From: Adlercreutzia faecimuris
GTDB taxonomy: Bacteria; Actinomycetota; Coriobacteriia; Coriobacteriales; Eggerthellaceae
Assembly (NCBI RefSeq): GCF_022669055.1
Contig: NZ_JAJMLW010000001.1
Span: 372,001 to 436,000 of the forward strand
Direction of reading: 5' to 3'
DNA length: 64,000 bases
Part shown: one piece after another, positions 16,055-57,053 of the stretch
Layout: each line of letters starts with the position of its first letter
Numbering within the stretch: position 1 is the first letter of the stretch
Notes under the pieces: generated by a model
Databases searched by the model: none
What the model was told of the DNA's origin: nothing
The model's input: the letters and a program-made list of their open reading frames with translations, nothing else
Translations under genes and position numbers: made by a program

Positions 16055-19000
16055 ATGAGCGTGTTGAGGAGACTCGCCGACGCCCGGAACACCGTTGAGG
16101 GGAAGTTCCTCGCGGTGCTGATGGCGGCGGTGCTGGCCGTGTCGATGTGCGGCATGCCGGCATGGGCCGACACCAAGGCCGACGCAGGGCAGACCTCCGC
16201 AGCAGCGGAGAAGCCCGCGAACCCCGTGATATCCCTCAGCCTGGGCAACGGCTACCTCGTCTACGGGGCGGGGCAGATCGTGAAGGCCCCGGCCACGAAG
16301 GTGACCGCGGTGGCCGGCAGGGACTTCAAGTTCGTGCCCGAGGCCGACAAGGGCTACAAGGTGGCGTCGGTGTCGCTGAGCGTCCAGGGCACGCAGCTCG
16401 ACCTCTACCCCAACTCCTTTGGCGAGTACGTCATCCCCGCGGCCAAGCTGGCGGGCGGCGCGCACCTGACGCTGGTGACCGAGAAGGTGTCCACGTCCTC
16501 TTCCAGCGCGCCGAGCACCACTCTTAACAGCCAGAGCACGATGACCCCGGAGAATCCTGGCGCGCCGGTGTCCGAGGCCATCAGCCAGTCGGGTGAGATC
16601 ACCCAGCAGTTCGTGACGGAGAACCTGGCCGAGGGCGCCGAGCAGCCCGCCGGCGCCACCGGCACCGCTTCGACCAAGCCCGCGCCTGTCGACAACGGCG
16701 CCGTGGAGGTGGCCGTCAACGACGCCGTGACGCTGAACTCCGACCGCGGCGACTTCGCCCATGCCTGGACTTCCTCGAACAAGGACGTGGCCGTGGTGGC
16801 CGGCGAGCGCGGCGTCGCGCTGGTCAACAGCATGGCCGAGGGCACGGCCGTCATCACGCACACCTACGCCGCCTACGGCGAGGACGGCCACAAGTGGAAG
16901 ACCCAGTCCGAGACGTGGACGGTGAAGAGCGTCGCCAGCCAGGCACTGGCCGTGACCGCGCCGGCGACCGACCCGGCCGACGCGACCGACCCGGCGGGCG
17001 ACCAGCCGACCGACGGCCAGCAGAAGCCGGCTGACGAGGCGACCCCCGGCTCGCAGCAGGTCCCGGCCGCCGAGCCCGAGCCGCAGGACGGCGGCGACGA
17101 GGGCGACTGGCCCATGCCGAAGCAGCCCACCATCACCATCACCTATGCCTTCCACAATAATGAGGGTGCCCCGCTCGACGAGCTGCCCGAGCCCTATGTG
17201 GCCACCGGCAAGGAGGGCATGTCGCTCGTGCCCAGCTCCTATGTCAAGCCCATCGAGGGCTACGTGGTCGTGGACGTTCCCGAGTCGGTCGAGTTCGGCA
17301 CCGAGGACGTCACCCTCACCGTCACCTACCACCGTGACGCCAACGGCAACGGCACGCCCGACTGCCGCGAGTACGGCGCCTCGGTGCGGCTCGACAGCTG
17401 GACTTACGGCGACACGTCCAACAGCCCGGTTGCCGCCATCGTCCCCTCGGCGGCCTTCACGGAGGTGACCGCGGCCGACTTCCCCGGCAAGCCGGCCATC
17501 GCCTATCGCGATCGCAGCGCCGCCGCCGCGGAGTGGGTCGAGGACAAGCCCCACGATGCCGGCGAGTACGAGGTGCGCGCCACCTGGCAGTCCGAGAAGT
17601 ACGGCGAGGTGACCGCTACCCAGCAGTTCTCCATCTACCCGCGCGCCATCACGCTGACTAGCGCGAGCGACGCGAAGGAATACGACGGCACCGAGCTCTC
17701 CAAGCCCGAGGTGAACGTGACCGAGGGAAGCTGGGCGTACAGCGAGGGCGCCGACTATGACGTGACCGGCAGCATCACCGAGGTCGGCGAGGTCGAGAAC
17801 GCCTTCACCTACACGCTGAAGGACAACACCAAGGCGAGCAACTACACCATCACCTGCGTCAACGGCAAGCTGACCGTGACCAAGGCCGGCACCGCGGCCG
17901 GCAAGCTGACCGTGTTCGCCGCCTCGGCGCAGAAGTACTACGACGGCACGCCGCTCACGGCGGGCTACGCCTACGAGGGCCCCCTGGCCGAGGGCGACAC
18001 CCTGGAGGTGGCCACCGAGGGCACCATCACCAACGTCGGCACCGCCGAGAACAAGATCACCAGCCTGAGCGTGGTGAACGCCGACGGCGCAGACGTGACC
18101 GCCAACTACAACATCGAGGCCTCGTCTACGCCCGGCACGCTCACGGTCGTCCCGCGCGAGGTTGTCCTGGCCAGCGCGAGCGACTACAAGATCTACGACG
18201 GCGAGCCCCTCACCAACCACGACGTGACCGTCGGCGGCAAGGGCTGGCCCGAGGGCGAGGGTGCCACGGTCGAGGTGACCGGCACCCAGACCGAGGTGGG
18301 ATCGTCCGAGAACACGATCACCTACACCCTGAACGAGGGCATGAGCGCCGACAACTATCGTATCACCCTGAAGCCCGGCACCCTGACCGTCGGCAGCGCC
18401 GACGCCGTGCACGAGGTGTCCGTCGTGGCCAAGAGCAGCGCGGTCACCTACGACGGCCGCACCCAGGTGGTCGAGGGTTTCGAGGGCTGCGAGGGCACGG
18501 CCGCCCCGACCTTCACCATCGAGGGCGAGACCTACACCGTGTCGGGGCTGACCGCCCAGGCCAGCGGCACCGACGCCGGCGAGTACGCGGTGAACGTCAT
18601 GGGCACGCCCCAGGTCACCGACAGCCAGGGCGACGACGTGACGGCGCAGTTCAACGTGAAGACCGTGAACGGCACGCTCTCCATCGCCAAGCGCCACGTC
18701 GTCTTGGTGAGCGCCGACGCTGTGAAGAACTACGATGGCGAGCCGCTTGTCAACGCTACCGTGCGCGACGAGGGCGACGGCTGGGCATGGAACGACGGCG
18801 CCACCTACCAGGTGACGGGCGCGCAGACCGCCGTCGGCTCGTCTGACAACGCCTTCACCTACACGCTGAACGCCAACACGAAGGCGTCCAACTACGACAT
18901 CGAGTGCCTCTTTGGCACGCTGACCGTCAACGCGGCCGACACCGAGTCCGTCGTCACGCTGATCGCCAAGTCCGAGACGGTGAAGTACGACGGCACGGCT

Positions 19001-22000
19001 CACGAGGTGACGGGCTTCCGCGTGAAGGGCAGCGACGACGCCACCTTCGTCGTCGACGGCAAGACCTACACGGTCGAGGCGACCGTCGGCGCCGCCGGCA
19101 CCGACGCGGGCACCTACCCGGCCAAGCTGACCGGCACCCCCAAGATCACCGACGCCGACGGCAACGACGCGACCGGCCGCTTCGCCGTGGCCCTGGCGCC
19201 CGGCGCCGGCCTGACCATCGAGAAGCGCTCTATCACGCTGAAGGCCGTTAACCAGGAGAAGGTCTACGACGGTACGCCGCTCGTCAACACCAACCTGATG
19301 CCTGCCCTGGACGGTGACGGCTGGGCCGCCGGCGAGGGCGCCACGTATGCCTTCACCGGCTCCCAGACGCTGGTGGGCACGTCGCCCCTCACCTTCACCT
19401 ACACGCTGAACGCCAGCACGAAGGCGTCCAACTACGACATCACGACCTATCCGGCCAGCCTGACGGTGCTCAACCGCGACGCCCGGTTCGATGTGAACGT
19501 GGCGGCTGCCTCCAAGACCGTGACCTACGACGGCGCGGATCAGGCAGTGACCAGCCTGGCCGGCGAGCAGGACTACACGATCGGCGCGGGCGATTCCGTC
19601 CGCACGGTGCGCGCCGTCGAGGTGCGCCCTGGTGGCGTGCCGTTCTACGTGACCGGGCTTACGGTCGAGGGCCACGGCAAGGACGTCGGCCGGTACGCGA
19701 TCGGCGTCACCGGCGCCGCCGTTGTCTACGACGCCCAGGGCAACGACGTGACCGAGCAGTTCGCCGTGACCACGACGGCCGGCGAGCTCGTCATCGACAA
19801 GCGTCCGCTGGCCCTGGTGTCTGCCGGAATCGAGAAGCCCTATGACGGCTCGCCCCTGACCAACGGCGACACGCCGCTGCTCATCGAGGAGGGCTGGGCC
19901 GCCGGCGAGGGCGCTACGTACGTGTTCTCCGGATCGGCCACGCGCGTGAACGAGACGGTGACCAACGCCTTCGAGATCGTCCCCGACGCGGGCACGAACC
20001 TGGACAACTACCTCCTCACGAAGCAGGAGGGCGACCTGCGCATCGTCAACCCCGCGGCGCCTCACACCCTGGTCGTCGCGGCCAATTCCGCCACCTTCAC
20101 CTATGACGGCGAGGAGCACTCCGTCGGCGGGTTCCCCGGCGAGTTCGTCGACCAGCTTGGCCGCACCGTCGTGCCCGCACAGCTCGGCGAGGGCGGTGCC
20201 ACCTTCTACGTGACCGGCCTGCATGCGCCCGCCATCACGGCCACGAATGCGACGGAAGGGCGCACCGGCGTCGTCGAGACGGACGCCAACGTCGTCGTCT
20301 ACGACGCGGACGGCCAGGTGGTCACCGAGATGTTCAACGTCAAGCCCGAGCCGGGCAAGCTGGTGATCAACCCGCGCCCCGTCACCTTCGAGTCGCCCAG
20401 CATCGACAAGCCCTACGACGGCACGCCGCTCGTCGGCGACGCCGCGGCCATGATCATCGGCGGCGAGGGCCTGGTGGCCGGCCAGGAGGTCGAGTTCACG
20501 ATGACCGGCTCCCAGACGCTGGCGGGCTCGTCCGACAACTCCTTCACCTACGTCTGGAAGGACGGCACCAACGCCGCCGCCGACAACTACGCCGTCACCC
20601 TCAAGACCGGTACGCTGACCGTGACGAAGGAGGGCGCCACGAGCGTCGTCACCCTGACCATCGGGTCGGCCGACGCCACCTACGACGGCCAGCCCCACGG
20701 CCCCGAGGGCTTCGAGGGCGAGCGCGGCAGCGTGTCGGTGCCCGCCGCCGGCGACCGCCCGGCCTACGAGGCGGAGGGCATCTGGGCCACGTCCGGCAAC
20801 GTCCGCTTCCTGGTGAACGTGGACGGCTACCGCCTGGGCGACTTCCCCGTGAACGCGGGCGTGTACCAGGTGGGCGCCACGGGCGCGGCCGTCGTCTTCG
20901 ACGAGAACGGCAACGACGTGACCGATGTGGTCGGCGTCATCGTGAAGCCGGGCGCCGTCACCATCGCCCCGCGCGAGGTGAGCCTGGAAAGCAACAGCGA
21001 CGCCAAGGTCTACGACGGCACGGCCCTCACGGGCACGAGCGTGGCCGACGTGTCCGCCGAGGGCGCGGGCTGGGTCGAGGGCGAGGAGGCCACGTTCCTC
21101 TTCACCTCGTCGCAGACCAACGTCGGCAGCGTCGAGAACCGCTTCGACTGCCTGCCGAACGCCGCGACCCGCATCAGCAACTACAGCATCGCCTCCAAGG
21201 CCGGCACGCTGACCATCGTGCCCCAGAGCATCGACCCGGCGGCGCCGACCGAGATCAATCCCGACGACCTGACCCAGGCCGTCTACACCGGCGCCGAGGC
21301 GCTGCCCATGCCGACGCTCACCTATGCCGGCCAGGCCCAGGAGCCGGTGCCGACCATCGTCACCGCCAACGGCCAGGTGCTGCGCCAGGGCGCCGACTTC
21401 GCGCTGGCCTATGAGGGCAACACTACCAACGTAGGCACTGCGAAGGCTGTGGCGACGGCCAACCCCGCCGGCAACTTCCGCGGCACCGTGGCATGCGAGT
21501 TCGAGATCGTGCCCGCCCCGGCCCGCATCATCGTCAACCCGGCCGCCAAGTTCTTCGGCGACGACGACCCGGCCGCGTACGGCGGCTACGCCGTGGACGG
21601 CCTGTTCGGCAGCGACGTGCTGGGCACCGTCACCCTCACCCGCCTGGGCGACGCCGAGGAGGCCGGCACCTACCCCGGCGTCATCGACGCCACCGTCGCC
21701 CAGCAGAACGGCAACTACGTGGTGACCGGCGTCGAGCGCGGCGCCTTCACCATCGCGCCCGTCGAGGGCAACGCGCTGCTGCTGCAGAACGTGGCCGGCG
21801 CCGACAGCTTCTCGAAGACCTACGACGGCCGCCCGGCCGTGGTGCGCGCCACCGCCCTTCAGCCGAACTCCACCATCTGGTTCTCGGCCGACGGGACGCT
21901 GGACAACTGGACCACCGACATGCCCGACTTCGTGAACGCCGGCACCTACCAGGTGTACGTCCAGGCTACCCACAACAACTTCGAGCCCACCGCGCCCGTG

Positions 22001-40612: not shown

Positions 40613-40760
40613 GGGAGCGCCCCGCCTGCGCGCGGCCCGTCCGCCGCGCCGTGCCCGCCCGCCGCGCTCTGCCTGCGCCCGCCCGCGCCCGTCCCGCCCG
40701 CCGCGCCTGCCCCACCCGCCGCGTGTCAGGGGAGCGCCCCGCCTGCGCGCGGCCCGTCCG
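40611..40760. repeat. GC-rich direct repeat after the DUF2207 gene
   Basis: A 33-base sequence beginning AGGGGAGCGCCCCGCC occurs at 40611-40643 and 40728-40760. Between and after them lie degenerate CCGCCGCGC/CCCGCC runs. No gene is supported; it is a low-complexity duplication. Confidence 0.65.
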
Positions 40761-40849
40761 TCCGCCGCGCTCCGCCCGCCCGCGCGCGGCCCGTCCGCCG
40801 CGCTCTGCCTGCACCCGCCGCGTCGCGCCCGCGCAGTTTTCGCGGCATC

Positions 40850-55163: not shown

Positions 55164-55290
55164 TAAGGAAAGAAAATCGCGATTTTCTTTCCTTAGCGCC
55201 ATCCGAAGGCCTCGTAAGGTAAAGAAGTTTTCCTTAGCCGCGACACCAGGCGCCCGAAGGAAAGAAAACGGCGGTTTTCTTTCCTTCGGG
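55164..55290. repeat. Flanking repeat A beside the Fic gene
   Basis: It contains a perfect 32-bp palindrome (55164-55195, built on TAAGGAAAGAAAATCG) and a second hairpin CCCGAAGGAAAGAAAAC/GTTTTCTTTCCTTCGGG (55253-55290). The ~124-bp unit is repeated in the same orientation at 56488-56611 with about eight differences. Confidence 0.85.
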
Positions 55291-55298
55291 CTTTTGAC

Positions 55299-56438
55299 CT
55301 AGTCAGTCCCCACTTCCAGGATGTCCATGTATTCCTTGAACACGTAGGTTTTGCCGCGGGCCATGTCGGGCGAGGCGTCTACGAGCACGGCGAAATCGTT
55401 CATGAAGCGGTCGATGAGCGCCGCCGCCGTTGGCCTGCTGATACCCAGCCGGTCGGCAGCTCCGACGCGTGTGATGGTTGGCGTGATGAGCAGCAGGTCG
55501 AGGAACTTTCGGGCATTTGCGGCTGATGCTCCGCCGACTGAGTCGATCAGGGCGACCTTCGTCTCACGAAGCCGGTTGATGCGAGTGGCTGATTCCGACG
55601 ACTCCTCGGATATCTCGATGATTCCCCGAAGGAAGAACTTCACCCACTCCTCCCATTCGCCCTTATGTCGTATGGCCATCAGCCGGTCGTAGTACTCGGT
55701 GCGGTTTCTCTTGAAGTAGTAACTCAGATAGAGCAGAGGTCGACTCAGGATGTTCTGCTGGCAGAGCCAGAACGTTATGAGCAGGCGTCCCATGCGGCCG
55801 TTTCCATCGATGAAGGGGTGGATGGTCTCGAACTGCGCGTGGATGAGCGCGATTTTGATCAGCGGAGGCAGGCCGTCGTCTTCGTGGATGTAGCGCTCCA
55901 GGTCGCCGAGGGCATCAGTCAGATCGTCAACGCAGGGAGGCACGTACGCGGCATTCGCCAAGGTGCACCCGGCCCCGCCGATCCAGTTCTGCGAGGTGCG
56001 GAACTCACCGGGATGCCGGTTGCTTCCGCGCCCCGAGGCCAGCAGCTTCCCGTGAATCTCGCGAATGAGCCGCAGGCTCATGGGGAAGTCGCGCAGGCGC
56101 TCGATGCCGTAGTTCATGGCGTTGACGTAGTTGGTTACCTCGCGCGCATCCTGGGTCTGACGCTCTTCTGCCACCAGTACTTCGGCGAGGGATGCCTGGG
56201 TGCCCTCGATTTGGGAGCTGAGGAGGGCCTCCTTCTTCACGTACATCGACACGAACAGGTCGGGGTTCGGGAGCGTTTGGGTAATGCCGTCGAGTCTGCC
56301 GAGTGCCCGGTCGGCCGCTGAGAGTAGCTGTATCATCTCGCCGTCGAACTCCAGCGGGGGCTCGGGAGGAAGCGGGGCGGGCTTGAATGACGAGTAGCCT
56401 GTCGGTTGGTGAATGTAGCGTCCAGCGCGGCCTTCCAT
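55299..56438 (-). CDS. Fic-domain AMPylase-type protein (class II, self-inhibited)
   Basis: The 379-residue protein has an N-terminal Fic_N region carrying the inhibitory motif SSQIEGTQ (about 75-82), the Fic core with HPFIDGNGRMGR (~205-216), and a C-terminal winged-helix domain (about 300-365, VGAADRLGISRPTAAALIDRFM). The motif set is complete, so it should transfer AMP (or another nucleotide phosphate) to a protein target under control of its own inhibitory helix. GAAGGGAGC precedes the ATG. Base composition is lower in GC than neighbours, and it is framed by two direct repeats, which point to gene acquisition. No antitoxin gene is adjacent, consistent with an internal inhibitor. Confidence 0.9.
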   Translation of the reverse strand: MEGRAGRYIHQPTGYSSFKPAPLPPEPPLEFDGEMIQLLSAADRALGRLDGITQTLPNPDLFVSMYVKKEALLSSQIEGTQASLAEVLVAEERQTQDAREVTNYVNAMNYGIERLRDFPMSLRLIREIHGKLLASGRGSNRHPGEFRTSQNWIGGAGCTLANAAYVPPCVDDLTDALGDLERYIHEDDGLPPLIKIALIHAQFETIHPFIDGNGRMGRLLITFWLCQQNILSRPLLYLSYYFKRNRTEYYDRLMAIRHKGEWEEWVKFFLRGIIEISEESSESATRINRLRETKVALIDSVGGASAANARKFLDLLLITPTITRVGAADRLGISRPTAAALIDRFMNDFAVLVDASPDMARGKTYVFKEYMDILEVGTD

Positions 56439-56480
56439 GGCATGCTCCCTTCTAGAAGTGCCTGAATTATAGGCGACAAG

Positions 56481-56611
56481 ATGGCGCTAAGGAAAGAAAA
56501 TCGTGATTTTCTTTCCTTAGCGCCATCCGAAGGCCTCGTAAAGTAAAGAAGTTTTCCTTAGCCGCGACACCACGCGTTCGAAAGAAAGAAAACGGCGGTT
56601 TTCTTTCTCTA
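56481..56611. repeat. Flanking repeat B beside the Fic gene
   Basis: The copy starts with a 46-bp near-perfect palindrome (56481-56526, arms ATGGCGCTAAGG...CCTTAGCGCCAT) and ends with GAAAGAAAAC/GTTTTCTTTC (~56585-56606). Relative to repeat A it keeps seven extra palindrome bases on the left side. It lies just upstream of the Fic start. Confidence 0.85.
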
Positions 56612-57053
56612 GAGCCGACAGAGAAGGGGGCGTTTCTTCTTTGCGGGGGGGGGCGCATGCCGGGAGGGCGGCCGGAGGCGTTGGGGGCTTTTCGCTCGGG
56701 CGCTCTGTTCGTCTTTGGCTAACGGGTTGGCGTCAAGTTGGAAAATGATTTCTGTAGTTTTCAGCCGCCCAAAAACACAACTTGTTCGCTTGCAGTCGAA
56801 CAAGGGCCCATGTACTATATCTACTTGCTAGGAAACGTATTAAACACAACATATTGTGTGCAAGTCGGAGCAAAAGCGGTGGAAATCCTGTTGATGAAAC
56901 AAGCGATTCCCCACTTCGGCGCGATGAACCTCGCAAGCGTTGAATAATGCGGAAACTCCGAACGAAGCACAGCATTTTGTGCTTGCCGCCCTGCGCTGCC
57001 GCGCGGGGCGACGTTGTGAATGGCCGCGGCAGCAGAAAGGAAAACGGCACGCC
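56612..57053 (+). promoter_or_regulatory. nrdD regulatory region with NrdR boxes
   Basis: A strong NrdR box ACACAACATATTGTGT lies at 56844-56859. A weaker one, GTACTATATCTACTTG, starts 32 bases earlier (56812-56827), the usual three-turn spacing for the ATP/dATP-sensing repressor NrdR. Upstream, CTTGTTCG (56781-56788) and CGAACAAG (56797-56804) form an inverted repeat of unknown role. No protein-coding gene is supported here. Confidence 0.7.

Follow-up and report, generated by a model that had tools for sequence, protein, structure and literature searches.

Predicted operator arrays at one or both ends of class II Fic genes in Adlercreutzia faecimuris and related bacteria

The window, a stretch of 64,000 nt from the Adlercreutzia faecimuris contig NZ_JAJMLW010000001.1, carries a fic gene on its minus strand (55299-56438) that is enclosed by two direct repeats, one on each side. 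The repeats (55164-55283 and 56488-56607) are 120 nt long each and 95% identical, with six differences. A sequence-only reading of the same DNA had put them at about 124 bp with about eight differences, and they are real. The two A/T-rich palindromes that it had seen in each repeat are also present, perfect or near-perfect and 30-48 nt long; it had overlooked a third site in the middle of both repeats, which is shorter and imperfect (TAAGGAAAA..TTTACCTTA). Viewed along the fic strand, three palindromic sites make up each repeat, an array with the layout N14, N4, N14. A site pairs the 9-nt half-site TAAGGAAAG with its inverted copy, 14 or 4 nt away. The features of the locus are:

55164-55283, no strand: repeat A, the predicted 3' operator array, past the fic stop codon and between two convergent genes
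55164-55195, no strand: N14 site of the 3' array, TAAGGAAAG-N14-CTTTCCTTA, a perfect 32-nt palindrome
55215-55236, no strand: short N4-type site of the 3' array, imperfect
55256-55287, no strand: second N14 site of the 3' array, 11 nt past the fic stop codon
55299-56438, minus strand: fic, 379 aa, with Fic_N, the Fic catalytic core and a C-terminal winged helix-turn-helix, class II Fic (Pfam, AF2 and fold match)
55398-55436, minus strand: codons of the recognition helix, residues 335-347 (AF2 secondary structure; covariation peak at 331-341)
55785-55820, minus strand: codons of HPFIDGNGRMGR, the canonical Fic motif, residues 207-218
56202-56219, minus strand: codons of SSQIEG, the N-terminal inhibitory motif (S/T)xxxE(G/N), residues 74-79
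56466-56471, minus strand: predicted fic -10 box TATAAT (box search and sequence)
56488-56607, no strand: repeat B, the predicted 5' operator array, on the upstream side of fic and adjoining its promoter
56488-56519, no strand: promoter-proximal N14 site of the 5' array, whose palindrome reaches outward to 48 nt (56480-56527)
56539-56560, no strand: short N4-type site of the 5' array, imperfect
56580-56611, no strand: distal N14 site of the 5' array, partly decayed

The product of fic matches the Pfam families Fic_N (1e-27) and Fic (8.6e-19). The active-site motif HxFx(D/E)GNGRxxR is present as HPFIDGNGRMGR and nearly all of its positions are invariant in alignment A1, as are S74, S75, I77, E78 and G79 of the class II inhibitory motif. 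The protein is thus a class II, self-inhibited AMP-transferase, with the activity predicted from these motifs. In the AF2 model (pLDDT 79.7, pTM 0.82) the C-terminal winged helix-turn-helix consists of helices at residues 303-318, 324-331 and 335-347 and strands at 321-323, 352-354 and 364-367. Class II Fic proteins that end in such a winged helix are widespread. The same domain order and fold are seen in SoFic (SO_4266) of Shewanella oneidensis (3eqx, 3zcn) and in the M. marinum Fic structure 7cb8, both among the best PDB matches of the window Fic in sequence and fold; 7xux, which from its title and date we take to be the structure of the Fic protein CccR, is a weaker fold match than SoFic. 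The window Fic belongs to a different equivalog from SoFic, since it scores 168 against the NCBIfam model NF046030, whose cut-off is 550. The accessible parts of the literature on SoFic and 7cb8 describe no operator. The gene had been called low in GC; at 61% it does lie below the 68% of the window, but only moderately.

In the 5' array, the N14 site closest to the promoter (56488-56519) has a perfect TATAAT 16 nt beyond it. From the sequence, a -35 element spaced 17 nt from this box would occupy 56489-56494, within the proximal half-site. The pattern AAGGAAAGAAAA-N6-TTTTCTTTCCTT has four matches in the window with at most three mismatches, against none in 100 shuffles. Further copies of the 120-nt repeat, which the sequence-only reading had proposed to look for around the genome, are absent from the 2.79-Mb genome apart from the two at fic.

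Fic homologues were gathered from 395 genomes of the order, one genome per species and many of them drafts, and their flanks were scanned, with start codons assigned by rule. Arrays recur at these loci. Upstream inverted repeats with spans of 32-34 nt amount to 84-92 sites at 44 of 62 loci, where about 3 are expected; about 18 of the 62 loci have no upstream palindrome at the thresholds used. Downstream there are 46 sites of span 32 at 27 of 61 loci (3.2 expected), and inside the fic genes the same scan found no inverted repeats above chance. A registered half-site was obtained in only 37 of 64 loci, partly by a rule that arms start with TAA, TTA, TAT or TAG, which leaves lineages like G059 and G144 outside the geometry and covariation tests although their palindromes are clear. 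The distances between half-site starts peak at 23 and 13 nt for convergent pairs and at 27-28 nt for divergent ones; the 23-nt pair was the entry criterion for each locus, and the peaks at 13 and 27-28 are unselected. A TATAAT-like box lies within 24 nt of the proximal site at 22 of 37 loci (7.3 expected).

The half-site itself is lineage-specific and uniform within a locus; TAAGGAAAG, TATCGAAAG, TAATTAAAG, TAACGAAAG, TAACGACGG, TAAGAACGA and TTATTTCAA are found, among others. The inner 14 nt are palindromic in some lineages only (51% of pairs against 28% expected, and 0-2 of 7 in several), which indicates that conservation falls on the half-site pair. Upstream inverted repeats are also seen beyond the order, at homologues from several other phyla. 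In L014 (positions 1400-1640, G048:C6:292590), five or six related palindromes of the TAACGAAAG and TAAGGAAAG types lie next to an aldo-keto reductase gene; G048 has this palindrome array and no Fic of this family.

The differences between half-sites track those between recognition helices when the rest of the protein is allowed for: across 28 dereplicated loci the partial Mantel r is 0.53, with a permutation p of 0.0002 that is liberal for related sequences, and 32 control windows gave a mean r of 0.02 and a maximum of 0.30. The partial r of the recognition helix, 0.53-0.57, is above that of any other part of the protein, and a scan of the whole protein with 8-residue windows places the covariation peak at residues 331-341. 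After strict dereplication to seven very different sequences, the recognition helix is barely still the top window.

Experiments on CccR (YPK_0951), a class II Fic of Yersinia pseudotuberculosis that has a C-terminal HTH, showed that it represses its own promoter, according to the accessible part of the report (PMC9755527). Its dimer binds an operator described there as the inverted repeat AGATAATCAT-N26-ATGATAATCT near the -35 and -10 boxes (PMC9755527). The window Fic shares with CccR its class, its C-terminal HTH and the inverted repeats over its own promoter. CccR differs in having one operator with half-sites 26 bp apart and a 46-nt footprint, and in being secreted by a T6SS; neither an array nor a 3' copy is mentioned in the part of the report at hand (PMC9755527). 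The window family, in contrast, has arrays of two to four sites with N14 and N4 spacing, often on both sides of the gene. The protein probably works like CccR, therefore, and is not itself a CccR. Among the open-access papers found, CccR is the only class II winged-helix Fic with a mapped operator.

The covariation of the half-sites, together with the CccR precedent, makes an operator the best reading of the arrays. It is likely that they are the operators of an autorepressing Fic, that recombination keeps the arrays alike, and that recombination or ordinary deletion can remove fic. By analogy with CccR, the C-terminal winged helix would bind the paired inverted half-sites over its own promoter and so repress it; the N14 and N4 spacings differ by about one helical turn, with successive sites 27-28 nt from each other. 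The repeats are thus best read as fic's own operators over its promoter rather than as unrelated elements that captured the gene, which had been one of the earlier suggestions. Class II Fic-HTH proteins and autoregulation are of known kinds; the fixed-geometry operator arrays with changing specificity are new. With one half-site per locus that tracks the recognition helix, operators can be predicted for dozens of Fic proteins, and the DNA code of the family becomes testable.

The locus resembles toxin-antitoxin operons with palindromic operators in that a toxin-like enzyme stands under its own DNA-binding part. Unlike in those operons, fic has no separate antitoxin gene, the inhibitory helix and the DNA-binding domain being in one polypeptide, and its operator is copied behind the gene.

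A different explanation is that the palindromes act as RNA, as bidirectional terminators or mRNA-stabilising hairpins, and that their repetition is incidental. Long perfect hairpins do occur in several lineages, and the 3' copies checked by hand, in the window and at a CorA locus, lie between convergent genes, a usual place for terminators. Yet no terminator-like site, with a GC-rich stem and a T run, was called at either array, and the terminator reading was rejected. Being upstream of the -10 box, the 5' array is outside the transcript of the fic promoter; many lineages keep the outer half-sites while their inner 14 nt do not pair, and the half-site sequence follows the Fic recognition helix. 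An RNA role is accordingly most improbable.

The operator array is often found at both ends of the gene. At a threshold of E <= 1e-10, 19 of 59 fic loci have direct repeats common to their 5' and 3' flanks, as does 1 of 138 non-fic control genes from the same material; the control list also caught four fic genes, including one in Acetomicrobium. At 15 of the 19 loci these repeats are of the array type. Pairs of a locus's own half-site occur in the 3' flank at 11 loci, compared with 5 of 994 swap controls and 0 of 37 gene-interior controls. The two array copies of a locus are 80-99% identical, spacers included, and mostly unrelated across loci. Nine changes of the double-array state are required on the Fic tree, well-supported branches forcing at least six of them. 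The 3' array is missing at most loci, which argues that it is dispensable for fic. The array repeated behind the stop codon at 15 loci, homogenised within each locus and repeatedly gained and lost, is new, and searches of the open-access literature turned up no Fic gene described as lying between its own operators. The series of loci lets the reason for copying an operator behind a gene be asked; a recombination partner, a looping site and a by-product are unproven candidates for what the 3' array is.

Some Fic genes have non-operator direct repeats of 70-206 nt in their flanks: L090 (G191), L041, L145 and L157 (G140, G286 and G280), L178 (G007) and L064 (Acetomicrobium). The sole control with a flank repeat is a non-Fic, ATPase-like gene (L129, 978-2306) with a 63-nt direct repeat. 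A second Fic-HTH subfamily (L129 2602-3849, L132 744-1976 and L167-L183) has a TWACGGAAG-type palindrome upstream in 12 of 17 loci (TWACGGAAGTG..CACTTCCGTWA). None of its 17 loci has a 3' array, so arrays at both ends are not a general feature of Fic-HTH proteins. Solo copies of the palindrome of this subfamily are found without its Fic in G024, G057, G105 and G028.

Loss of fic leaves arrays behind. The sequence-only reading had proposed to search other strains for the site with a single repeat and no Fic, and sites of this kind exist in relatives. At a site between CorA and UDG, fic is present in G346, G344 and G033 and absent from G043 (of the same genus as G346), G006 and G025. G006 and G043 have one intact array each there. 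G025 keeps the array, the promoter region, the ribosome-binding site and 29 fic codons, and at least this solo array is therefore the leftover of a lost fic; no other fic remnant was found beside solo arrays. The window's own site is orthologous and empty of fic in G001, of the same genus, with one weak, unconvincing palindrome-like remnant. Double array, single array, truncated gene and solo array make up a natural series on how such genes come and go. Recombination would keep the 5' and 3' arrays alike, and recombination between them, or ordinary deletion, would remove fic and leave one array. The earlier idea that recombination between the repeats would delete the gene cleanly is consistent with the homogenised repeats and with the fic-less sites, of which some retain a single array; in G043, however, the remaining array resembles a 5' one, so loss there need not have been a clean crossover.

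A search with tblastn gave no convincing fic remnants beside existing fic genes. By direct comparison, relics of a fic 3' end were seen ahead of the 5' array in G213 and G097 (29 and 27 of 36 nt, against 15-19 of 36 at other loci); that of G097 reads LRAGSDPL-stop. These relics imply that an array formerly located behind the 3' end of a fic gene has been duplicated or relocated ahead of fic.

Fic is distributed patchily, at several different sites and at odds with the genome tree, which implies that horizontal transfer is involved too. In G059 and G018, both of one genus, Fic is 70% and 44% identical to the window Fic, and NrdD 85% and 84%; in G160 and G207, of family f4, it is closer to the window Fic than in most of the window's own family. 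This patchiness, with the empty and solo-array sites, would also suit a mobile element bounded by the repeats. It could be REP/MITE-like or a composite cassette that a transposase or recombinase moves, and Fic would either ride along as a passenger or mobilise it. REP/BIME, RAYT-associated palindromes and MITEs are similarly short palindromes that frame a gene. The fic repeats differ from them in occurring as just two copies per genome without spread and in having half-sites specific to the adjacent Fic; neither a target-site duplication nor a recombinase gene was seen at the locus, no terminal motif beyond the half-site pattern is common to the lineages, there is no relative in viral contigs, and most loci lack the 3' array. 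Such an element is unlikely. Membership in a REP/MITE family, which the sequence-only reading had offered, is ruled out by the two copies in the genome, and it is the half-sites, not a hairpin, that are conserved. A phage or plasmid origin was also rejected: there was no phage record or viral contig, and the plasmid matches were just distant fic coding sequence.

The operator explanation may be extended, rather than replaced, by giving the 3' array a regulatory role as a second operator. Fic bound at both ends would bridge a loop of about 1.3 kb, which would tighten repression or block transcription through the gene. The 3' arrays keep the half-sites and spacing of the 5' arrays in 15 loci across wide protein divergence, and the 3' array of several loci touches or overlaps the stop codon, the TAA of which doubles as the first three bases of a half-site. 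The binding of CccR to its operator as a dimer, given in the accessible part of the report (PMC9755527), fits bridging as well. Against this, the spacers match each other as closely as the sites do, for which recombination is explanation enough, and the 3' array is often lacking, even in the sister species G003, which has only the 5' array at the same site. Looping is possible, but the odds are against it.

A more speculative idea, to which we give little credence, is that array, fic and array form a small selfish module in which the array is both operator and recombination homology. Fic would then be lost and regained at solo arrays, half-site specificity would diversify by lineage as in the immunity groups of temperate phages, an incoming fic would be silent only where the resident shares its specificity, and the fic 3'-end relics of G213 and G097 would be traces of such recombination.

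Elsewhere in the window, ACACAA/TTGTGT repeats at 56780-56860 (e.g. AACACAACATATTGTGT), which resemble NrdR boxes, lie upstream of nrdD, the anaerobic ribonucleotide reductase gene, whose ORF extends to 59402. A single large coding region holds seven related units (17726-21124) at intervals of 513-600 nt, probably the repeat domains of a surface protein. At 40621-40821, four copies of a short GC-rich, tandem-like repeat (CCCGCCTGCGCGCGGCCCGTCCGCC...) occur within 200 nt.
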